49,899 nt of DNA from Bacteroidales bacterium (GTDB taxonomy: Bacteria; Bacteroidota; Bacteroidia; Bacteroidales; Prolixibacteraceae). Shown piece by piece: positions 5,182 through 24,965 of the stretch. The notes beneath the pieces are model-generated. The model was not told the DNA's origin, did no database searches, and saw nothing but the letters and a program-made list of their open reading frames with translations. Made by a program: the position numbers and the translations under genes. Every line of letters begins with the position of its first letter. Position 1 is the first letter of the stretch. The stretch is from contig JAATGF010000077.1 of the NCBI GenBank assembly GCA_015654795.1, forward strand, positions 1 to 49,899. Direction: 5' to 3'.

Positions 5182-5619
5182 ATGATGTTTCCCAAACTTA
5201 CCATTAATACTCCTATTGCGTTACTCAATCAGTACGTCAAAGACACAATGGTTGAAAACCTTGGCATCCAATTTACCGCTATTGGCGAAGGATGGGTGGA
5301 AGCCACAATGCCGGTTGATCACCGGACCTCACGCCCCGGAGGATTGTTGCACGGAGGCGCTAATCTTGCACTCGCTGAGACAATTGCAGGGCTTGGTTCC
5401 ATGCTGACAGTCGATATCAATGAATTCGATGTTCTCGGAATTCAGGTCAGTGCCAACCACACTGGTGGTTTATCCGGAGGAACAGTTTTTGCCCGTGCCG
5501 AAATTGTGCATTCCGGTATCCAGACCCAAGTTTGGAATATTGAAATAAAGAGTGAAGCAGGAAAACTAATTTCGACTGCACGAGTGACCAACATGATTGT
5601 AAAACGTAATGGAAAATAA
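5182..5619 (+). CDS. menI: Hotdog-fold acyl-CoA thioesterase, probable DHNA-CoA hydrolase
   Basis: The 145-residue protein has a single hotdog domain of the PaaI/YdiI type. The motif LLHGGANLALAETIAGLGS carries the HGG signature and the catalytic acid in AET. YdiI-type enzymes (MenI) hydrolyse 1,4-dihydroxy-2-naphthoyl-CoA to DHNA in menaquinone synthesis. It is the first gene of the men operon, and its 3' end overlaps menF by 11 nt, which supports that assignment over a generic thioesterase. The gene starts with tandem ATG codons at 5182 and 5185. A TAATTTTG word at 5169-5176 is so close that it would give an almost leaderless transcript if used as a promoter. Confidence 0.82.
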   Translation: MMFPKLTINTPIALLNQYVKDTMVENLGIQFTAIGEGWVEATMPVDHRTSRPGGLLHGGANLALAETIAGLGSMLTVDINEFDVLGIQVSANHTGGLSGGTVFARAEIVHSGIQTQVWNIEIKSEAGKLISTARVTNMIVKRNGK

Positions 5620-6724
5620 GACCACTTTAACTTCGGTTCTGGATCAACTCATTGAAAAACACATTGCTTTTGCCTGTTGGTTTAACCCGATGGAGAATCA
5701 CCTCGGGATTGTTATCGGAAATGCATATGACGTTAAATTATTAGATCGTTTCGATCAGCTAAATGGAGAAGCCGGATTTGTCTTTGCACCGTTCAGAATC
5801 ACTGATAAATACCCGGTTATTCTTCTTAAACCAGCTATTTATCTCGAAGATTTCAACTCCGCCAAACAGCTTGATTTCACGAATATCGAACCCTTCAGTT
5901 CTGATAAAATGGCTGATGACCACTGTATTGTTAGCACAAAAGAAGAATATGTTAGTACCATCGAAGAAACAGTAGCTGCCATTCGCGAAGGAGAACTTTC
6001 GAAAGTGATTATTTCCAGGCAAATACCAGTTAAGAGACCGGTCCGATCATTGGGAAACATTTTCTTTCAATTGCATGATCAAACACCTAACGCATTCACC
6101 TATCTGGTCAATTTGCCAAGTGCCGGAAACTGGATGGGAGCCACACCAGAAGTATTACTCAAATCGGAAGGCGGATTTTTCGAAACAGTTTCACTGGCAG
6201 GTACACAAGTCCGAAAATATAATTCCGACGATTATTATTGGAACACTAAAGATATTGAAGAACAGGCATTTATTTCAAGATATATGCTTGAGCTGTTTCA
6301 CCTTTTCGATATTCATAAATACAGGACGACAGGTCCCGAAACTTTGGAAAGCGGTAAAGTAGCGCACCTGAAAACCTCTTTCTTTTTTGCGGCTGAAAAA
6401 ATTGAAAATTGTCTTGGTGATTTTGTAGCCGAACTTCATCCAACGCCTGCTGTTTGCGGTTTACCAAAGAATCTTGCTGACGAATTTATCAGGGAGAAAG
6501 AAAAGCATGACCGAAAATACTATACAGGATATCTTGGCCCATGGAAACTGAATCAGCAAGTCAATCTTTTCGTAAATTTACGCTGTATGGAAATTACGAA
6601 TAACGAATTCATTCTTTATGCCGGAGGCGGAATAACCTCCAAATCGGTTCCGGAACGCGAGTGGGAAGAGACTAATCAAAAGGCCAAAACATTATTGGCT
6701 GTAATTAACACTGAATCAGAATGA
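5609..6724 (+). CDS. menF: Isochorismate synthase
   Basis: The 371-residue protein has the chorismate-binding fold. SKVIISRQIPV starts the catalytic domain at ~130. SAGNWMGATPEVLLKSEGG, SLAGTQV, LHPTPAVCGLP and the C-terminal YAGGGITSKSVPEREWEET are conserved features of isochorismate/anthranilate synthase enzymes. It converts chorismate to isochorismate, the first committed step of menaquinone synthesis. Its position between the thioesterase (11-nt overlap) and menD (4-nt ATGA overlap) marks it as MenF rather than a siderophore EntC. The N-terminal ~120 residues are less conserved, as usual for Bacteroidota versions. Confidence 0.93.
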   Translation: MENKTTLTSVLDQLIEKHIAFACWFNPMENHLGIVIGNAYDVKLLDRFDQLNGEAGFVFAPFRITDKYPVILLKPAIYLEDFNSAKQLDFTNIEPFSSDKMADDHCIVSTKEEYVSTIEETVAAIREGELSKVIISRQIPVKRPVRSLGNIFFQLHDQTPNAFTYLVNLPSAGNWMGATPEVLLKSEGGFFETVSLAGTQVRKYNSDDYYWNTKDIEEQAFISRYMLELFHLFDIHKYRTTGPETLESGKVAHLKTSFFFAAEKIENCLGDFVAELHPTPAVCGLPKNLADEFIREKEKHDRKYYTGYLGPWKLNQQVNLFVNLRCMEITNNEFILYAGGGITSKSVPEREWEETNQKAKTLLAVINTESE

Positions 6725-8406
6725 TCTCAGATAAAAAACATGTTCAGCAACTCGCAGCCCTACTTCTGAAAAAGGGGATTACAGATATTGTGATCTCGCC
6801 AGGAAGCCGCAATGCACCAATGATTAATACATTTACGGGTATTCCCGGTTTTTGCTGTCGAAATATTGTTGACGAACGTAGTGCTGCCTATTTTGCAATT
6901 GGATTGGCACTGGCAAAACAAAAACCAGTTGTGTTGATTTGCAGTTCAGGAACGGCTGCATTAAATTATACACCGGCAGTTGCAGAGGCATTTTACCAAA
7001 ATATACCACTGATTATTCTCACGGCTGATCGTCCCAATTACTGGATTGATCAGGCTGAAAGTCAATGTATCCGTCAGGAAAATATCTATCAGAATTTCAC
7101 GAAAAAGGAAATTAGTTTGCCTTTAGGCGAATCAGAAAAAGAACTTTGGTATGCCGCAAGGCAAATTAACGAATGCCTGAATCTGTCTGTTTCAGGACAA
7201 CTCGCTCCGGTACATATTAATATTCCGCTCGAAGAGCCTTTACATAAACTGGTTCACGCGGATTTATCTGAAGTAAAGGACATTGAACTGGCAGAAACCC
7301 AAAATGTATTAGAAGAAAATGAGATTGCATGCCTGGTCAAAACTATTAACCAGTCGCAAAAGGTTCTGATTTTGGCAGGGCAGCAAAGTCCCAATCCAGA
7401 ACTGGAAAATATATTAGCCAAGCTGATTGATAAAACAGGAGCAATTGTTCTGCATGAACATTTATCGAATCTTTCTGATCCACAATTTTGTGGAAGCATC
7501 GATGTACTGATGACTGGCATCCTGGATGAAAATATCGAATCGTACCAGCCCGATTTGCTGATCAGTTTTGGAGGACAGTTTGTCTCCAAAGCGCTCAAAC
7601 AATTTCTTCGAAAAAATAAACCTCTGCAGCATTGGCACCTAAGCTTGTCCGGCGAGCATTTCGACACTTACCAGTCGCTGTCGAAAGTCGTCAAAATGGT
7701 GGCTGTCGATTTTTTTGATGTGATTTCATCTCATGTTCAGCAAAACGACGACAAAGGCTATCTTCAGCTGTGGAAAAACAAAGAAGCGAAAGTCAATCAG
7801 CTTCGTGATGAATTTGTGGAAAGCATTGATTTCTGCGATTTGAAAGCTTTTAGTCTTATCGGACAAAAAATACCAACCGGCACTGTTATTCATTTGGGCA
7901 ATAGTTCGCCGGTGCGATATGCCCTGATCCATAACCGGGTTAAAAACGCAAAATATTACAGTAACCGTGGTACAGCAGGAATTGACGGATGTTTATCGAC
8001 AGCGGTTGGTTTTGCCAACGAATCGGATAAGATAAACACCATCATTTTGGGTGACCTATCTTTTTTTTACGATTCGAATGCTTTGTGGAACAAATATATC
8101 GGATCAAATTTGCGCATCATCGTTATTCACAACGGTGGCGGAAATATCTTTGGCATGATCAAAGGTCCATCTGACTCACCTGCATTTACGGAACATTTCT
8201 TAGCTGAAAATATACTTAAGGCCGAAGTATTGGCAAAAGCTTTCGGTCTTGATTATTTCAAGGCCGAAAACGAAGCAGAACTTGAAAACGCACTGGATGA
8301 ATTCTATTCCCCGGAACAAAAGAAAGTTGCTTTATTGGAGGTTTTTACGAATGCGGAAACGAATGTGAGGGAGTTTCGGGAATTATTTAAACAAGTTAAA
8401 ATGTAA
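6721..8406 (+). CDS. menD: SEPHCHC synthase (2-succinyl-5-enolpyruvyl-6-hydroxy-3-cyclohexene-1-carboxylate synthase)
   Basis: The 561-residue thiamine-diphosphate enzyme adds 2-oxoglutarate to isochorismate with loss of CO2. The N-terminal Pyr domain holds [10 protein letters not shown] (~26-35) and the activating glutamate region [12 protein letters not shown]. The C-terminal PP domain holds the ThDP/Mg motif [14 protein letters not shown] (~440) and [11 protein letters not shown]. Length and motifs are normal for MenD. It overlaps menF by four nt, indicating translational coupling, and is followed after 11 nt by menB. No menH (SHCHC synthase) gene follows; that step may be spontaneous or encoded elsewhere. 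Confidence 0.95.
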
Positions 8407-8417
8407 ATCAACATACC

Positions 8418-9242
8418 ATGAACACTAAAAGAGAATGGCAAACAATAAGGGAATACAAAGATATTTTCTTCGATTATTTTGACGGAATCGGAAAGATTAC
8501 TATCAACCGCGAACGCTACCGCAATGCATTCAGGCCGACGACGGTAAATGAAATGAGCGATGCACTAAAGATATGCCGTGAAGATCAGCGGATTAATGTA
8601 GTAGTACTGACAGGAGCCGGTGACAAAGCTTTCTGCGCAGGTGGTGACCAAACCGTGAAAGGTAAAGGTGGCTACATTGACGAAGACGGAATTCCGCGCC
8701 TCAACATTCTCGAGGTACAGAAGCAAATCCGATCGATGCCAAAACCGGTAATCGCAATGGTAAACGGATATGCGATCGGCGGCGGACATGTATTGCATGT
8801 GGTTTGCGATATCAGTATTGCTTCGGAGAATGCGATTTTTGGGCAGACCGGTCCCAAAGTTGGAAGTTTCGATGCCGGATTGGGTTCATCCTACCTGGCA
8901 AGCATCGTTGGTCAGAAAAAAGCGCGCGAAATCTGGTTTATGTGCCGCCAATATTCTGCAGCCGAAGCTTTGGAAATGGGTCTGGTCAACAAAGTAGTTC
9001 CGCTTGAACAGCTGGAAGATGAAGTAGTTGCCTGGGGACAAAAAATGCAGGAACACAGTCCGCTGGCACTGCGTATGCTGAAGCTTGGATTGAATGCCGA
9101 TCTCGACGGACAAATCGGGATTCAGGAGTTTGCCGGAAATGCCACTTTGCTTTATTATCTCACAGAAGAAGCGCAGGAAGGTAAAAATGCATTCCTCGAA
9201 AAACGCAAACCTGACTTCAAAAAATATCCAAAATTTCCTTGA
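8418..9242 (+). CDS. menB: 1,4-dihydroxy-2-naphthoyl-CoA synthase
   Basis: The 274-residue crotonase-superfamily protein closely resembles E. coli MenB. It has [11 protein letters not shown] (oxyanion-hole region, ~75), [14 protein letters not shown] (~118), [17 protein letters not shown] (~145) and a C-terminal [16 protein letters not shown]. It cyclises o-succinylbenzoyl-CoA to DHNA-CoA. The QTGP motif places it with bicarbonate-dependent type I enzymes (family knowledge). The gene ends the first half of the men operon; the next gene is an ATPase 89 bp away with its own promoter. Confidence 0.96.
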
Positions 9243-9260
9243 TATCAGCATTATACAGAT

Positions 9261-9306
9261 GTAACAAAATTGTTAGTAACAAAGTTGTTAGTAACAAAAA
9301 TGTTAC
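9261..9306. repeat. Three tandem 15-bp palindromes, candidate operator
   Basis: Three head-to-tail copies are present: GTAACAAAATTGTTA (9261-9275), GTAACAAAGTTGTTA (9276-9290) and GTAACAAAAATGTTAC (9291-9306). Each is itself a near-perfect palindrome of the TAACAA-N2-TTGTTA type. The likely -33 TTG of the downstream gene (9285-9287) lies inside the second copy. Repeated dyads overlapping a promoter are typical of a cooperative DNA-binding regulator; which protein binds is not known. Confidence 0.85.
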
Positions 9307-9315
9307 ATATTTTTG
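9285..9315 (+). promoter_or_regulatory. Promoter inside the men operon, before the ATPase gene
   Basis: TTG (9285-9287), 20 bp, then TATTTTTG (9308-9315) matches the Bacteroidota promoter pattern. The start codon of the ATPase gene is 16 nt downstream of the -7 box. The promoter would also drive menA-menC-menE. Confidence 0.6.
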
Positions 9316-9331
9316 CTGGTAAAAATTGACC

Positions 9332-10468
9332 ATGGAAACACCATTCGTTTTTGGGAAATTAGCGGTTGACCGAAATTTTACGAACAGAGACAATGAAAGA
9401 GTACGATTGGCTGGAAATTTTGCCGGTCTCGTTAACACAGTACTTATTTCGCCTCGTCGTTGGGGAAAATCATCTTTGGTACAAAAGTCGGCACTTGAGG
9501 CAATTTCAGCAGATAAAAATCTGCACTTTTGCTTTCTTGATGCATTTAATATTCGGACTGAAGAACAGTTTTACCTTGCACTTGCCAGCGAGGTTTTAAA
9601 GATTTCTTCCTCAAAGTTAGACGTAATAATTGAAAATGCGAAGCGGTTTATAGGAGTGTTTCTTCCTAAACTTTCTTTTAGTCCTGGTCATCAGGATGAA
9701 TTTTCGCTAAGTCTCGACTGGAAAGAAGTAAAGAAACATCCGGATGCGATTCTTGATATGGCAGAGACTGTTGCGACGGAGAAAGGATGGAAACTGGTGA
9801 TTTGTATCGATGAATTTCAGAACATTTCAACATTCGAAAATCAATTGGCATTTCAGAAAAAACTGAGGTCGCACTGGCAGAAGCACCAGCATGTTGCATA
9901 TTGTTTATATGGAAGTAAACGGCACATGCTCATGGATGTTTTTACCAGTTCTTCGATGCCGTTTTATAAATTTGGTGATATCCTTTTTCTTGAAAAGATA
10001 CACAGGGATAACTGGATTCCCTTTATTTGCAGTCGTTTTGAGGATACGCAGAAACACATCAATGAAAATGATGCTGCCCTGATCGCGGATCTGGCAGAGT
10101 GTCACCCGTATTACGTTCAGCAACTTGCGCAACAAAGCTGGTTACGAACAGCGACAGCGTGTTCAGAGGAAATAATCAGGGAAGCACACGAAGGAATAGT
10201 GTCGCAGCTTAGTTTGCTTTTTCAATCCAAAACAGAAGAATTGTCGACACCCCAAATTAATTTTTTAAAAGCTTTGCTGGATGGAGTTGAAAAATTTAGT
10301 TCGAAAAACATGATAGATGATTATCAGCTTGGGTCTTCTGCAAATGTATCCCGGATTAAAAAAGCCCTTGAAAACAAGGAGATTATCGACATAATGGCCG
10401 GAAATATTTTAGTACTCGACCCGATGTACAAAAATTGGCTGGTAACCCGGTATTTTATTAAAAATTAA
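9332..10468 (+). CDS. Archaeal-type P-loop ATPase with C-terminal winged helix, inside the men operon
   Basis: The ATG at 9332 was chosen over a TTG two codons upstream, giving 378 residues. The N-terminal ATPase domain has Walker A SPRRWGKSS (~40-48) and Walker B LVICIDEFQNI (~153). A sensor-like LYGSKRHMLMDVF follows at ~193. The C-terminal ~80 residues (TPQINFLKALLDGV ... SSANVSRIKKALENKEII) look like a winged helix-turn-helix. This is the archaeal-ATPase-like family common in Bacteroidota. It has no known role in menaquinone synthesis, yet lies between menB and menA with only 10 nt to menA. The palindromes just upstream make DNA binding or self-regulation plausible. Its function is unknown. 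Confidence 0.88.
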   Translation: METPFVFGKLAVDRNFTNRDNERVRLAGNFAGLVNTVLISPRRWGKSSLVQKSALEAISADKNLHFCFLDAFNIRTEEQFYLALASEVLKISSSKLDVIIENAKRFIGVFLPKLSFSPGHQDEFSLSLDWKEVKKHPDAILDMAETVATEKGWKLVICIDEFQNISTFENQLAFQKKLRSHWQKHQHVAYCLYGSKRHMLMDVFTSSSMPFYKFGDILFLEKIHRDNWIPFICSRFEDTQKHINENDAALIADLAECHPYYVQQLAQQSWLRTATACSEEIIREAHEGIVSQLSLLFQSKTEELSTPQINFLKALLDGVEKFSSKNMIDDYQLGSSANVSRIKKALENKEIIDIMAGNILVLDPMYKNWLVTRYFIKN

Positions 10469-10478
10469 ACAAGCAAAA

Positions 10479-11387
10479 ATGGCATCAGTAAAAAGTTGGA
10501 TTAAGGCAGCACGTCTGCGAACACTGCCTTTGGCGATGTCGGGTATTTTGATGGGTGCCGCCTTGTCGTATTTTGATGGCGGTTTCCAAACTAAAATAAC
10601 CGTTTTAGCCATAGTTACCGCCTTATTTATCCAGATTTTTTCCAATTTCGCAAACGACTATGGCGATTCGCAAAAAGGAACTGACAACAAACATCGCGTG
10701 GGGCCTCAGCGAACAGTTCAAAGCGGAGAAATTAGTTTGAAGGAGATGAAAGTCGGAATGGTGGTTTTGATTGCATTGAGTCTTGCAAGCGGGATTTGGC
10801 TGGTCGCTGAAGGAACAAAAGGACTTGATCTTAATACCTTTTTGCTTTTCCTCGGTCTTGGAATTGTTGCATTAGTTGCGGCTTACCGCTACACCGGGGG
10901 GAACAATCCATACGGATATGCCGGATTTGGCGATATGGCTGTATTTCTTTTCTTTGGATTGCTACCTGTAGTTGGCACTTATTTTCTGAATACACACATG
11001 ATTAATCCTGGAATATTTCTTCCTGCAATCACCATTGGATTTTTCAGCACGGGCGTATTGAATCTGAATAACATGCGTGATATCGAAAACGATCGTAATT
11101 CCGGCAAAAAAACGGTAGTTGTGAGAATGGGAGGCGATAAAAGCAGACTTTATCACACCAGTTTGATTACGCTGGGATGGTTTTGTGCTGTATTGTTTGT
11201 TGCACTTCGGTTTCAATCCATTTATCAGACACTTTTTCTTCTGACTGCATTACTTTTTATCCGTGATCTGGTAAAGATTAACAAAATACAGGAACCACGC
11301 CAACTTGATCCGTTTCTGAAAAAGTTGTCGATTGCTACGCTGTTATTTACTTTGCTGTTTGGAATAGGAATAATTTTGGCCGTATGA
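10479..11387 (+). CDS. menA: 1,4-dihydroxy-2-naphthoate polyprenyltransferase
   Basis: The 302-residue UbiA-superfamily integral membrane protein has about eight or nine hydrophobic segments. The first Asp-rich motif is NDYGDSQKGTDNKHRVGPQR (~58-77); the second is NNMRDIENDRNSGKKT (~197-212). It joins an all-trans polyprenyl chain to DHNA with decarboxylation, giving demethylmenaquinone in the inner membrane. It follows the ATPase gene by 10 nt and overlaps menC by four nt (ATGA). The motifs and neighbours leave little doubt over MenA versus other UbiA members. Confidence 0.95.
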   Translation: MASVKSWIKAARLRTLPLAMSGILMGAALSYFDGGFQTKITVLAIVTALFIQIFSNFANDYGDSQKGTDNKHRVGPQRTVQSGEISLKEMKVGMVVLIALSLASGIWLVAEGTKGLDLNTFLLFLGLGIVALVAAYRYTGGNNPYGYAGFGDMAVFLFFGLLPVVGTYFLNTHMINPGIFLPAITIGFFSTGVLNLNNMRDIENDRNSGKKTVVVRMGGDKSRLYHTSLITLGWFCAVLFVALRFQSIYQTLFLLTALLFIRDLVKINKIQEPRQLDPFLKKLSIATLLFTLLFGIGIILAV

Positions 11388-12427
11388 AAGCCCATTTCAA
11401 AAAATATATCCTTAATTTCAGGCAGGCTTCCGGTACTTCACGCGGAGTTTACGCGACCCGCGAGGTTTGGTTTATTTTTCTAAAGGACGGAACTAAAATT
11501 GGAATTGGCGAATGTGCACCGTTGCCCAATCTGAGTGTTGAAAGTCCTGAGAAAATGAGCGCCAAATTGCAACAGGTCTGCGATAACATTGAGTATTTCA
11601 GCCAGTTTTCAGAAGAGTTGCAAAACTGGCCATCTATCCGATTCGGACTCGAAACCGCAATGCAGGATCTGCAAAACGGAGGACAACAAATTTTATTTCC
11701 ATCGGCTTTCACGCGCGGAGAACAGGGTATCCCGATCAACGGACTGATCTGGATGGGAACTCCCGAGTTTATGAAGCAGCAGATCCGCTCTAAGCTGGTG
11801 GCAGGGTTTCGGTGTATCAAAATGAAAATCGGGGCCATCGACTTCGAGACCGAATTCAATTTACTGAAAGAGATCCGCAAAGAATTTTCTGCCGACGAAA
11901 TCACATTGCGGGTTGATGCCAATGGCGCTTATTCGTTCCAGACCGCCCTCGAAAACATGAAACGATTATCCGATTTGCAAATTCACTCCATCGAGCAGCC
12001 CATTAAGGCCGGGCGATGGGACGAGATGGCGGCACTTTGCGAAAAATCGCCGGTTCCGATCGGACTTGATGAGGAACTGATCGGTGTCTTCAATTCACTG
12101 GAAATGCAAAAACTGGTTGAAACCATTCGTCCCGCTTACCTAATTTTAAAGCCCAGCTTGCACGGGGGCTTTGCCGGTTGTGAAAAATGGATTGAACTGA
12201 CTAATAAACAAGGAATTGGCTGGTGGATCACTTCTGCCCTCGAATCGAATATAGGGCTGAATGCCATTGCACAATGGACTTTTCAGCAAGATTTCAAATC
12301 AGAACAAGGACTTGGAACCGGCCAGCTTTTCACAAATAATTTTGACTCGCCGCTTCAAATTGATGGAGATCAGCTTTGGTACAAACCTGCCCGTGAATGG
12401 CAGCTAAAACCACTGACCGATGAGTAA
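11384..12427 (+). CDS. menC: o-Succinylbenzoate synthase
   Basis: The 347-residue enolase-superfamily enzyme dehydrates SHCHC to o-succinylbenzoate. The catalytic Lys pair is in CIKMKIG (~145-150), metal ligands are in RVDANGAYS (Asp), SIEQPI (Glu) and GLDEEL (Asp), and the opposing Lys is in ILKPS (~255). The C-terminal ITSALESNIGLNAIAQW is typical of OSBS. Start and stop overlap menA (4 nt) and menE (8 nt), showing tight operon packing. Confidence 0.93.
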   Translation: MKAHFKKYILNFRQASGTSRGVYATREVWFIFLKDGTKIGIGECAPLPNLSVESPEKMSAKLQQVCDNIEYFSQFSEELQNWPSIRFGLETAMQDLQNGGQQILFPSAFTRGEQGIPINGLIWMGTPEFMKQQIRSKLVAGFRCIKMKIGAIDFETEFNLLKEIRKEFSADEITLRVDANGAYSFQTALENMKRLSDLQIHSIEQPIKAGRWDEMAALCEKSPVPIGLDEELIGVFNSLEMQKLVETIRPAYLILKPSLHGGFAGCEKWIELTNKQGIGWWITSALESNIGLNAIAQWTFQQDFKSEQGLGTGQLFTNNFDSPLQIDGDQLWYKPAREWQLKPLTDE

Positions 12428-13496
12428 AATACCCATTGTCATGATTATCAATGGTCTGAATTATTCTCAGAATGAATTGACTTCACTGATTGCAGAAAAA
12501 CTTTCATTTCCTCAACTGCCGGAATGGGAATATGAATTATATACATTTATCAAAGAATGGTTATCGCCTTCGGATTTTATTGAAGCACAGACTTCGGGCA
12601 GCACTGGCGCACCACAAATCATACGGTTACCGAAGACTACAATGCAACAAAGTGCTGGCAGAACCATCGAATATTTCGGACTTAAGGCTGGAAACCGAAT
12701 CTTATTAAGTCTGCCATGCCGTTTTATTGCAGGGAAAATGATGGTAGTGCGTGCAATCATTGGCCAAATGGATTTGATCACAGTTGATCCTTCCACTGAT
12801 TTTGAACTTTTGATGAACGACACTTTTGATTTCGGTTCGATGGTTTCAAATCAGGTTTTCAAACTGTTAGAATGCCATTCCGGTAGGGAAAAGCTCGAAA
12901 ATATCCATAATCTGCTGATAGGGGGTTCTGCCATTCCGGCAAATCTGGAAGTACAAATCAGCCAATTGTCCAGCAGGGTAGTTTCAACCTATGGAATGAC
13001 CGAAACCGCCTCTCACATTGCCATTCGCGAACTTTCGGGAGAAAAACGGTCAGACATTTATCATTGTCTGCCCGGAATTTCGGTTTCCACAGGAGAAAAC
13101 GATTGTTTACAAATTCATATTCCGGAATGGACAGCATCGCTTCAAACCAAAGATATTGCTGAAATTATTTCTCCCTCCAGTTTTCGGATTTTGGGAAGGG
13201 TTGATGATGTGATCATTTCAGGAGGAATAAAATACTGGCCAGACAGGATTGAGAAAAAACTGGAATCAGTAATTCCCGGACGATTTGTTATTTCATCAGT
13301 TTCCGATGAGATGTTAGGAGAAAAACTGGTGTTGGTAATAGAAGGTGAATATATTGACACTGAATTAATTCAACAAAAATCAGAAGAACTCCTTCCTTCG
13401 TTTGAACGCCCGAAGGCAATTTGTTTTCTGGATAAATTCCCGGAAACCCCAAATGGAAAATTAAAACGAAATGAAATAAAAGCGGCGATCAAATAG
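12420..13496 (+). CDS. menE: o-Succinylbenzoate--CoA ligase
   Basis: The 358-residue ANL-superfamily ligase is shorter than the ~450 residues of proteobacterial MenE, as usual in Bacteroidota. The P-loop is TSGSTGAPQII (~58); the adenylate-binding motif is TYGMTETASHIAIR (~195). The C-terminal lid has GRVDDVIISGGIKYWPDRIE and the catalytic-Lys motif PNGKLKRNEI. It activates o-succinylbenzoate as AMP ester and then CoA thioester for MenB. It is the last gene of the operon. A small hairpin at 13527-13543 (TCAAGGA/TCCTTGA) without a U-tract may lie near the 3' end of the transcript. Confidence 0.93.
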   Translation: MSKIPIVMIINGLNYSQNELTSLIAEKLSFPQLPEWEYELYTFIKEWLSPSDFIEAQTSGSTGAPQIIRLPKTTMQQSAGRTIEYFGLKAGNRILLSLPCRFIAGKMMVVRAIIGQMDLITVDPSTDFELLMNDTFDFGSMVSNQVFKLLECHSGREKLENIHNLLIGGSAIPANLEVQISQLSSRVVSTYGMTETASHIAIRELSGEKRSDIYHCLPGISVSTGENDCLQIHIPEWTASLQTKDIAEIISPSSFRILGRVDDVIISGGIKYWPDRIEKKLESVIPGRFVISSVSDEMLGEKLVLVIEGEYIDTELIQQKSEELLPSFERPKAICFLDKFPETPNGKLKRNEIKAAIK

Positions 13497-19040: not shown

Positions 19041-21197
19041 CTATTCTTCGACTTGTTCGGCTTCGTAGGCTTTGAGCAATTCTTCCTGAACTTCGGCGGG
19101 AACTTTTTCGTAGTTCGAGAATTTCAGTTTGAACATTGCTCGTCCCTGCGTAATAGAACTTAACGAGGTGGAGTATTTGTTCATCTCTTTGAGCGGAACC
19201 TTGGCCAGGATTTTCTCGAAACCTTTTTCAGAACTCATTCCCATGATCAATGCCCTGCGTCCCTGGAGGTCGCCCATTACATCGCCTAACCGATCAGATG
19301 GGACTAATACTTCGACATCATAAATTGGTTCAAGAATTTTTGGTCCTGCAATTTTAAAAGCGGCGCTGAATGCGTTACGTCCTGCCAGCCGGAATGAAAT
19401 TTCGTTGGAATCGACAGGGTGCATTTTGCCGTCGTAAACACAAACCCTGATATCGCGGGCATATGATCCGGTGAGCGGTCCTTCTTCCATTTTTTCCATG
19501 ATCCCTTTGAGAATGGCGGGAAGGAATCGCGCATCAATAGAACCGCCGACAATGCAATTGCAGAAAACAAGCTTTCCACCCCAGGGGAGATCGGTTACAT
19601 CAGTTCCGCGTAAGCTTATTTTCATCTCTTTCCCATCGATTTTGTACATTTCAGGGACAGGCATGCCCTCTTCGTAGGGTTCAATCACAAGGTGAACTTC
19701 ACCGAATTGACCAGAACCACCACTCTGTTTGCGGTGACGATAGTCACCTGGAGCAATTTTAGTGATGGTTTCGCGGTAAGGGATTTTAGGTTTTAGGAAT
19801 TGAATGTCGATTTTGAATACATTATCGAAATACCATTTCAGTGTATTAATATGGTATTCGCCCTGCCCATGAAGCAGGATTTGTTTTAACTCTTTGGAGT
19901 ACTCAATAATATATGTTGGATCCTCCTCTGCGAGTTTATGCATATATTCTCCCATTTTTTCTTCGTCAGCCTCGCTAACTGCTTTTATAGCTGTTGTATA
20001 GCGTGGAGCTGGATATTGTAATGGAGGGAAATTTATTTCAGCGTCCTTGTCGCAAAGCGTGTGGTTATGTTTTACTTCTTTGAGTTTTACAGTAGCGCCA
20101 ATGTCGCCCGCTTGCATTTCGGGGACTTTCATTCGGTTTTTACCTGCTACGGCATATATCTGAGATATCCTTTCTTTCGAATTTTTGGTGGTATTAACCA
20201 GATCCATTCCCTCTTTCAAGATTCCCGAGATCACTTTAAAATAAGTGACTTCGCCAACATGCTGTTCGATTGATGTTTTGAAAACAAATATTGAAGTCGG
20301 ACCGTTAATATCCATTTTAATAAATTTTCCGTCGACGGTTTCAACAGGAGCAAGTTCTCCGGGATTAGGAGCTACATTGCAGATAAATTCCATGAGTCGG
20401 CGGATTCCCATGTCGCGGGCGGCGCAAGTACAGAAAACCGGATAAAGGCTGCGGCTTAACATTCCAAGCTTAAGTCCTTTACGCATTTCGTCTTCGCTGA
20501 GATTTCCCTGCTCGAAGAAAAGTTCCATCAACTCTTCGTCGTTTTCGGCAGCCATTTCGAGCAGTTGGTTATGAACTTCCTCTGCGCGCTCAAGTTCAGT
20601 AGCAGGGATATCAAATATTTCGGGCGCTCCTCCGGATGGTCCCCATTGGAGCATTTTCATTTTTAGTACGTCGATTACTTTGTTGTAGCTTAATCCTGGG
20701 TTAAGCGGATATTGAACGATTGCCAGTTTGTTGCCAAAAGTGGTTTTGGCCATTTCAATCGTATTTTCCCAGTTACTGTTTTCATGGTCAAGATGGTTGA
20801 CAACAAAGATCAGCGGTTTGTGGAATTTTTCAGCATTCCTGTTCGCAATCTCTGTTCCTACTTCGACTCCATTAACGGCATTAAAAACCAGAAGCCCGGT
20901 AGCGGCTACACTGAGAGCAGGTATTACTCCACCTACAAAATCGTCCATCCCGGGAGTGTCGATGATATTAATCTTGCAACCTTCAAATTCGGTGTAAAGA
21001 ACAGTAGCGTGGACCGAATTGCCATATTCCTGTTCAACAAGATTGTAGTCTGATGCAGTGGTTTTGCTTTTTACGTCACCTCTGCGACTAATTACACCAC
21101 CCTCGAAGAGCATCGACTCTACAAGGGTGGTTTTCCCGGCGCCGGAATTACCAATTACAGTAATGTTCCGGATCTCTTTAGTTTGATATACTTTCAT
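19041..21197 (-). CDS. fusA2: EF-G2, elongation factor G paralogue with altered GTPase motifs
   Basis: The 718-residue protein has all five EF-G domains. The P-loop is GNSGAGKTT (16-24). Key GTPase residues differ from EF-G: switch I reads EQEYGNSVHAT instead of [18 protein letters not shown] (80-84) has Met where EF-G has the catalytic His, and NHLD (134-137) replaces NKxD. The translocation domain IV looks intact (GDYRHRKQSGGSGQFGEVHL). In Bacteroides thetaiotaomicron a related EF-G2 supports translocation without GTP hydrolysis during carbon starvation (established for that organism), so a starvation translation factor is the likely role. The gene is divergent from the str operon that encodes the housekeeping fusA. 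Confidence 0.92.
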   Translation of the reverse strand: MKVYQTKEIRNITVIGNSGAGKTTLVESMLFEGGVISRRGDVKSKTTASDYNLVEQEYGNSVHATVLYTEFEGCKINIIDTPGMDDFVGGVIPALSVAATGLLVFNAVNGVEVGTEIANRNAEKFHKPLIFVVNHLDHENSNWENTIEMAKTTFGNKLAIVQYPLNPGLSYNKVIDVLKMKMLQWGPSGGAPEIFDIPATELERAEEVHNQLLEMAAENDEELMELFFEQGNLSEDEMRKGLKLGMLSRSLYPVFCTCAARDMGIRRLMEFICNVAPNPGELAPVETVDGKFIKMDINGPTSIFVFKTSIEQHVGEVTYFKVISGILKEGMDLVNTTKNSKERISQIYAVAGKNRMKVPEMQAGDIGATVKLKEVKHNHTLCDKDAEINFPPLQYPAPRYTTAIKAVSEADEEKMGEYMHKLAEEDPTYIIEYSKELKQILLHGQGEYHINTLKWYFDNVFKIDIQFLKPKIPYRETITKIAPGDYRHRKQSGGSGQFGEVHLVIEPYEEGMPVPEMYKIDGKEMKISLRGTDVTDLPWGGKLVFCNCIVGGSIDARFLPAILKGIMEKMEEGPLTGSYARDIRVCVYDGKMHPVDSNEISFRLAGRNAFSAAFKIAGPKILEPIYDVEVLVPSDRLGDVMGDLQGRRALIMGMSSEKGFEKILAKVPLKEMNKYSTSLSSITQGRAMFKLKFSNYEKVPAEVQEELLKAYEAEQVEE

Positions 21198-22856: not shown

Positions 22857-24965
22857 ATGGCTAAAAGGGATCTCACAAATACCAGGAACATTGGTATCAT
22901 GGCTCACATCGACGCGGGTAAAACAACCACCTCTGAGAGGATTTTGTTCTACACGGGTAAAACTCACCGTATTGGTGAGGTTCATGATGGAGCAGCTACA
23001 ATGGACTGGATGGCACAGGAACAGGAGCGCGGTATCACAATTACTTCTGCTGCTACATTCACAGAATGGAAGTATAATGATATTGTCCATCAGATCAACA
23101 TTATTGATACTCCCGGGCACGTTGACTTCACTGTTGAGGTTGAACGTTCTTTAAGGGTACTCGATGGTGCAGTTGCTACGTTTTGCGCTGTTGGTGGCGT
23201 AGAAGCGCAGTCTGAAACTGTTTGGCGTCAGGCTGAGAAATATGGTGTACCAAAAATTGCATTTATAAATAAAATGGACCGTGCGGGTGCCGATTTCTAC
23301 CGTGTCTACAACGACATCAAGGAAAAGCTTGGCGCAAACCCTGTTCCAATCCAGCTTCCAATCGGGGCTGAAGAAAATTTCAAGGGAGTTATTGATCTTA
23401 TTCGCATGAAAGCCCTCTATTGGCACAATGAAGCCATGGGTGCTGAGTACGATATTTCAGAGATTCCTGAAGATATGCTCGAAATATCACGCGAATGGCA
23501 TGATAAAATGGTTGAATCAGTTGCAGAACAGGATGAAGTCCTTATGGAAAAATTCTTTGTCGATCCTGAAAGTATCACCGTTGACGAGCTTATAGCAGAA
23601 ATACGAAAAGCTACAATCACAGGTGCAATTATTCCAATGCTTTGTGGTTCGGCCTTTAAAAATAAAGGGGTTCAGACTTTGCTTGATGCAGTTTGTGCAT
23701 ATTTACCAAATCCGCTTGATATTGGTTCAATTGAAGGAAAAAATCCTGATACTGGCGAAGTTGTTGAGCGTAAACCTTCTGTTGACCAGCCGCTTGCAGC
23801 GTTGGCTTTCAAGATTGCAACCGACCCATTCGTTGGACGTTTGTGCTTTATACGTGTTTATTCAGGTAAGATCGATGCAGGTTCGTATGTATTAAACATG
23901 CGTACAGGCAAAAAGGAACGTATTTCGCGATTGTTCCAGATGCATGCCAACAAACAACAGCCACGCGACGTTATCGAAGCTGGTGATATTTGCGCTGCAG
24001 TCGGTTTTAAAGATATTCGTACGGGAGATACACTTTGTAGTCTCGACCATCCGATTATTCTTGAATCAATGACTTTCCCTGAACCGGTTATTGGTATTGC
24101 GATTGAGCCTAAAACTCAAAACGATATTGATAAATTATCAAACGGTTTGCAAAAATTAGCCGAAGAAGATCCAACCTTCCAGGTTAGAACTGATGAAGAC
24201 AGCGGTCAGACCGTTATTCGCGGTATGGGTGAACTTCACCTTGAAATTATCGTCGATCGTCTGAGACGTGAGTTCAAGGTCGAATGTAACCAGGGAGCAC
24301 CACAAGTTGCGTACAAAGAAGCGATTACTAAAGAAGTTGAGCTTCGTGAAGTATTTAAGAAACAAACCGGGGGTCGTGGTAAGTTTGCTGATATCAGCGT
24401 TAAAGTTGGTCCGGTAGACGAAGGTGTAACTGGTCTTCAGTTTGTTGATAGTATCAAAGGGGGAACGATTCCACGCGAATTTATTCCTGCTGTTGAGAAA
24501 GGTTTCAAAGAGTCGCTTAACAATGGACCACTCGCAGGTTTCAAAATTGAAAACCTCAAGGTTACATTGGTTGACGGATCTTTTCACCCGGTTGACTCCG
24601 ATGCGCTCTCTTTTGAGCTTTGCGCGAAACAAGCTTTCAGAAATGCAGCTTCCAAGGCAAAACCTGTCTTGCTTGAGCCTATTATGAAAGTAGAAGTCGT
24701 AACCCCGGATGATTATATGGGTGATATTGTTTCAGACCTTAACCGTAGGCGTGGTCATGTTGAAAGCATGGATTCTAAATTTGGGGCACGTGTTATCAAG
24801 GCTTTGGTACCTCTTGCCGAACAGTTCGGGTATGTAACTACCTTACGTACATTGTCCTCTGGCCGTGCAACTTCGACAATGGAGTTTTCGCATTATGCTG
24901 AAGTACCGAAAAATATCGCCTTGACAGTTCTTGAAGGTGTTAAAGGCAGAACAGATTTGTTATAA
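22857..24965 (+). CDS. fusA: Elongation factor G
   Basis: The 702-residue housekeeping translocase has canonical G motifs: [29 protein letters not shown] with the catalytic His, and NKMD. Domain IV carries [11 protein letters not shown]. It drives GTP-dependent tRNA-mRNA translocation and, with RRF, ribosome recycling. It makes a direct comparison for the altered motifs of fusA2 at 19041-21197. It sits in the order rpsL-rpsG-fusA-rpsJ; no tuf follows, which is usual in Bacteroidota where tuf lies elsewhere. Confidence 0.98.

Follow-up and report, generated by a model that had tools for sequence, protein, structure and literature searches.

A gene for an AAA+ ATPase that interrupts the men genes of a Bacteroidales bacterium carries a tandem array of palindromes in its own promoter, and across a large family of homologues the sequence of such arrays changes together with a single residue, 341, in the predicted recognition helix of the protein's C-terminal winged helix. 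We consider it quite probable that the ATPase binds its own promoter array through this winged helix and controls its own expression. Since the -33 element and the spacer are taken up by the array, that control is most likely repression. The window, meaning the whole stretch of 49,899 nucleotides that was analysed, is contig 94 of a 3.7 Mb, 69%-complete draft genome with Prolixibacteraceae as its closest named relatives, and the men genes and ATPase gene of the window are arranged as follows:

5609-6724: menF
6721-8406: menD
8418-9242, + strand: menB, the upstream neighbour of the ATPase gene
9332-10468, + strand: ATPase gene, ATG start at 9332, encoding 378 aa with an AAA+ domain plus winged helix (SSO1545-like)
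10479-11387, + strand: menA, first of menA-menC-menE (10479-13496)
11384-12427, + strand: menC
12420-13496, + strand: menE

By these gene coordinates the interval 9243-9331 is the sole real gap in the run from menF to menE, as the earlier note had reported, and only 10 nt separate the ATPase stop codon from the menA start. A thioesterase-like gene (window 5182-5619) adjoins menF upstream and, on inspection of its translation, is a candidate DHNA-CoA thioesterase. Two EF-G-type genes, likewise identified by inspection, lie near each other on opposite strands (window 19041-21197 and 22857-24965), the second of them within what appears to be a ribosomal protein operon.

The characteristic Bacteroidota promoter is a TTG at a defined spacing from a TAnnTTTG box, and elements of this type overlap the array between menB and the ATPase gene:

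9262-9275, + strand: palindrome 1, TAACAAAATTGTTA, perfect
9277-9290, + strand: palindrome 2, TAACAAAGTTGTTA, perfect; its TTG at 9285-9287 is the presumed -33 element
9292-9305, + strand: palindrome 3, TAACAAAAATGTTA, one mismatch, between the -33 and -7 elements
9308-9315, + strand: Bacteroidota -7 box TATTTTTG (TAnnTTTG), read from the sequence

The promoter that the earlier note placed here is thus present, as are its three palindromes, but the units are 14 bp long and it is their period that is 15 bp. The promoter reads TTG-N20-TATTTTTG, with the TTG drawn from palindrome 2 and the 20 bp spacing seen in many homologues, and is predicted to give a leader of ~10 nt. The array as a whole (9262-9305) overlaps this promoter and lies directly before the ATPase gene, between menB and menA. 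In 20 repeat copies from seven close relatives the half-site positions are almost invariant and the central 2 bp vary. When the 3.7 Mb draft was searched for the palindrome, as had been suggested, no second copy of the tandem pair was found at up to 3 mismatches (the reversed-pattern control gave 0), and the one other perfect single palindrome (C150:29196) falls within an open reading frame; a genome-wide regulon was rejected on these grounds.

The protein has both the Walker motifs and the C-terminal winged helix that had been proposed for it, the latter supported by an AlphaFold2 model:

9449-9475, + strand: Walker A-like motif SPRRWGKSS, residues 40-48 (R42, R43, G45 and K46 invariant in alignment A1)
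9797-9817, + strand: Walker B motif VICIDEF, residues 156-162 (D160 and E161 invariant)
10211-10453, + strand: C-terminal winged helix, residues 294-374, predicted by AlphaFold2 (helices 294-302, 306-316, 325-330 and 336-348, strands 352-355 and 358-361, helix 364-374)
10337-10375, + strand: predicted recognition helix, residues 336-348, with residue 341 covarying with the operator
10352-10354, + strand: codon of R341, mid-helix in the predicted recognition helix

Residues G45, K46, D160 and E161 are invariant in 37 homologues, as would be expected of a P-loop ATPase. The model of the window protein (mean pLDDT 90) comprises an AAA+ core and a C-terminal winged helix, and its nearest structures are PABY2304 (2qen, Z 24.0) and SSO1545 (2fna, Z 23.6), over 334 residues and with the same domain arrangement; a sequence profile also finds both. 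The next structural matches are archaeal Orc1/Cdc6 (Z 18-20, with entries 2v1u and 2qby, both DNA complexes, at Z 18-18.4) and TnsC (Z about 16). The match to Pfam PF01637 (ATPase_2) scores 25.4 bits, under the gathering score of 33.2, so the protein is only distantly related to that family and falls outside its formal membership.

The array goes with the ATPase gene and not with the men genes. Sampling of relatives, of the phylum and of a species collection yielded 152 distinct full-length homologues, and a strong array was defined as a tandem score of at least 14 within 150 bp upstream of the gene. Strong arrays precede 56% of 151 homologues versus 5% of 228 control genes at the same loci, and the same score is reached in 2% of dinucleotide shuffles. 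The period is 14 or 15 in 78 of the 84 strong arrays; two further homologue samples, scored at a looser threshold, have arrays in 44 of 67 and 50 of 73 cases, and by these criteria the array is absent from about a third of homologues. The array sequences vary widely, from TAACAA..TTGTTA in the window to GTTACC..GGTAA, TAATAA..TTATTA, CCTAAAATAGG, ACGAACTTTTCGT, GATAATCTA and more. The neighbouring genes are mostly unrelated, menB and menA being the only recurrent ones. At least one such ATPase gene occurs in 77 of 197 Bacteroidales genomes in one sample and in 60 of 140 in a family sample, and the operators of paralogues within one genome are no more alike than random pairs, which is consistent with separate self-circuits.

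Several features of individual homologues were also recorded. Two from Elusimicrobia (L067, L070) have a single long dyad of the type ATTATACCTTA..GGGTTAACCC..TAAGGTATAAT upstream instead of a tandem array. Others lie on IMG/VR contigs called viral (L289-L295), several of them with arrays, and L291 and L295 combine Ala at residue 341 with TAAGAA half-sites. A period of 15 goes mostly with 'AN', 'GN' or 'RN' at residues 337-338 and a period of 14 mostly with 'SS' or 'AT'; array spacing may be set by the packing of neighbouring winged helices.

The overlap with the promoter extends across the family. A TAnnTTTG box lies downstream of 93 of 143 arrays versus 3 in shuffled windows, a TTG stands 19-21 bp ahead of this -7 box in up to 61 of those 93, and the -33 position is covered by the array in 89 of the 93. 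Putative cognate sites therefore overlap the gene's own promoter across the family, as an iterated-operator autoregulator would have them. Coverage of the -33 element and spacer is a repressor position, and it argues against the ATPase being an autoactivator, for which the array would be needed to recruit or position RNA polymerase while the protein switched in response to a signal, the role suggested for IniR. IniR, which couples an AAA+ domain of the SSO1545 type to a DNA-binding domain, is indeed an activator (PMC5760070), but its extra sensor domains are absent from the window ATPase, and we regard this alternative as unlikely. It is scarcely credible that the repeats work at the RNA level, forming hairpins or terminating transcription between menB and menA. 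Read-through from menB would transcribe the palindromes, but their arms are A/T-rich and only 6 bp long, the array lies upstream of the predicted start site, there is no Rfam match, and the covariation with residue 341 described below would be left unexplained.

At 17 retrieved homologue loci besides the window, the ATPase gene directly follows menB or a menB end at the contig edge; within the DNA retrieved, menA comes directly after it at all of them except L008. In other Bacteroidales menB-menA is present with neither ATPase nor array, and arrays are generally absent at the ATPase-less men loci (L191, L193, L194, L196, L199), so the array was rejected as an element of general men regulation. 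The earlier note had named one finding as contrary to its proposal, namely relatives that have the palindromes but no ATPase gene, and one such case was seen: at L184, in genome G025, the ATPase is absent from menB-menA and a decayed 15-bp array, TGTAACAAAAATGTAACTTGCAATTTTGTTAGTT, remains before menA. G045 and G463, two genomes that share the genus code of G025, have the ATPase at menB-menA; gene loss in G025 is therefore the simplest explanation, and its degenerate array is likely the scar of that loss. This one locus is what would favour the array being the site of a different, unlinked regulator of menA-menC-menE, with the ATPase a bystander; against this, the ATPase has arrays at loci other than men, ATPase-less men loci generally have none, and the operator type tracks a residue of the ATPase itself, all of which make such a regulator very unlikely.

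The occurrence of an orphan gene at scattered sites agrees in part with the proposal that it is selfish cargo, but the analysis turned up no signature of mobility, and the men-site copies with callable arrays form one supported clade, suggesting vertical inheritance there. A partner gene or mobile cassette was rejected since no neighbour recurs outside men, and the PADLOC defence library gave no match. A candidate second insertion at menB (L049) was also discarded, its neighbour being just 26% identical to MenB. The scattered locations, the iterated sites, the structural likeness to SSO1545/PABY2304 and then to Orc1/Cdc6 and TnsC, and the fact that viral and plasmid records include some homologues could instead suggest a centromere- or origin-like nucleation site, on which an Orc/TnsC-like ATPase assembles for replication, segregation or mobile-element insertion and where the overlap with the promoter reflects the autoregulation common in such modules. 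There is, however, no conserved partner gene, plasmid or phage homologues are few, and the men-site copies were inherited within one clade; we give this possibility a small chance.

A discovery scan of 99 arrays asked which protein column predicts operator similarity beyond overall identity, and residue 341 came first of 344 columns (0.292, with the next at 0.16 and a permutation maximum of 0.187); it is also first over all 193 arrays. R341 pairs with ..ACA, K341 with ..ACC and I341 with ..ATA (TAATAA), N341 goes with TTGAAAT, and S, T or A at this position is often found with ACG, although the coding is not clean for S, T, A and Q. Within the helix scaffold G[ST]SAN[VI], R, K, I and A at 341 correspond to TAACAA, TAACC, TAATAA and TAAGAA. 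In the discovery set R goes with ACA 42 times and with ACC twice, and K once and 16 times, respectively. The rule was fixed at this point and then tested on two new homologue samples: the ACA:ACC counts are 17:0 for R and 0:2 for K in held-out set 1, and 20:3 and 0:7 in set 2, so that the pooled contrast is 37:3 versus 0:9 (p 1e-7, Fisher values here overstating certainty because related sequences are not independent). Over all the data, 110 homologues, the counts are 79:5 for R and 1:25 for K. In the discovery and pooled held-out sets alike, the predicted recognition-helix specificity appears to match the operator.

A blind column scan ranks residue 341 only 28-67 in held-out set 1 alone, 2-5 in set 2 and second in the two sets combined. 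The five cases of R with ACC are all of one kind, with an NARRN helix and CCTAAAATAGG; the rule-breaking clade (L145, L153, L348, L358, L362) combines R341 and this helix with CCTAAAATAGG / CCTAAAATAGGTAA arrays, and a different reading register is likely there. At the level of domains, the partial correlation with operator similarity is 0.15 for the whole C-terminal domain versus 0.07 for the ATPase domain; this comparison alone is unconvincing, whereas the residue-level test is convincing.

On a tree built from the ATPase domain alone, with the winged helix left out, residue 341 changes between R and K 10 times and the array 11 times. In independent well-supported pairs, residue and array agree in 4.6 of 5 and are never opposite, a sign test giving a p of only 0.06. 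The menB-menA clade contains both R/ACA members (the window, L006, L009, L011, L042, L044) and K/ACC members (L008, L010, L041, L045, L218), which means that the protein and all its repeats have changed together at one chromosomal site.

We therefore retain the earlier note's autoregulated DNA-binding ATPase insofar as array and promoter follow the gene across contexts and the operator covaries with residue 341; binding itself we infer. In the mechanism we propose, the C-terminal winged helix would bind the tandem palindromes in the ATPase's own promoter and repress it, several copies would sit side by side on about 3 repeats, one half-site per 7-7.5 bp, and this multimer would form or come apart according to the nucleotide bound by the AAA+ domain. 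As operator and recognition helix change together, each family member would read its own sequence. menA, menC and menE, beginning 10 nt downstream, would be expressed partly from the ATPase promoter; the 10-nt spacing and gene order suggest that they may be co-controlled with the ATPase, and expression of the pathway may be split by this promoter.

The arrays and the co-change at residue 341 suggest a gene family that is large, regulates itself and follows a simple recognition code. A bolder version has, in our view, a modest chance of being right: a large Bacteroidota family of orphan Orc-like ATPases, so far unrecognised, would form mutually orthogonal self-recognising modules, each reading its own array alone by a near one-residue code, and the array would seed an AAA+ assembly under ATP control that serves more than simple repression, be it immunity to relatives, DNA maintenance or the ends of a self-limiting selfish gene. 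The homologues are usually annotated just as 'ATP-binding protein', for example in plasmid records, and with no experiment the arrays predict which DNA most of them would bind and give a specificity code that is open to test (R to ACA, K to ACC, I to ATA). The role of SSO1545-like ATPases thus becomes directly testable, and the family preserves repeated natural cases in which a regulator and its multi-copy operator changed together, a known problem in regulatory evolution.

Autoregulators with iterated operators are already known, as are SSO1545-like ATPases. The Omega repressor and ParR, with heptad/iteron operators, and the C proteins of restriction-modification systems are autoregulators acting on iterated short sites in their own promoters; they are small ribbon-helix-helix or HTH proteins lacking an AAA+ domain and are tied to plasmid or restriction-modification partners, whereas the window ATPase gene stands alone and encodes an AAA+ domain. 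In the open-access literature searched, a limited test, we found neither the combination of an iterated operator with an SSO1545-like ATPase, a fixed 14/15-bp period and family-wide co-change of operator and helix, nor such arrays at PF01637-type ATPases, Bacteroidetes ATPase operators or men operons, nor an operator or autoregulation for SSO1545 or PABY2304. These two archaeal AAA+ proteins (PF01637, ATPase_2) have the same fold over almost the whole window protein, at 15% identity. IniR of mycobacteria shares with it an SSO1545-like AAA+ domain in a transcription regulator, and is an 818 aa protein with a MalT-like sensor and a LuxR-type DNA-binding domain that activates another operon (PMC5760070). 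Archaeal Orc1/Cdc6 initiators likewise join AAA+ and winged helix, a likeness of fold only, and nothing seen in the window points to an origin or to replication; unlike theirs, the sites in the window lie in the ATPase's own promoter, inside an operon, and repeat with a period of 14-15 bp.
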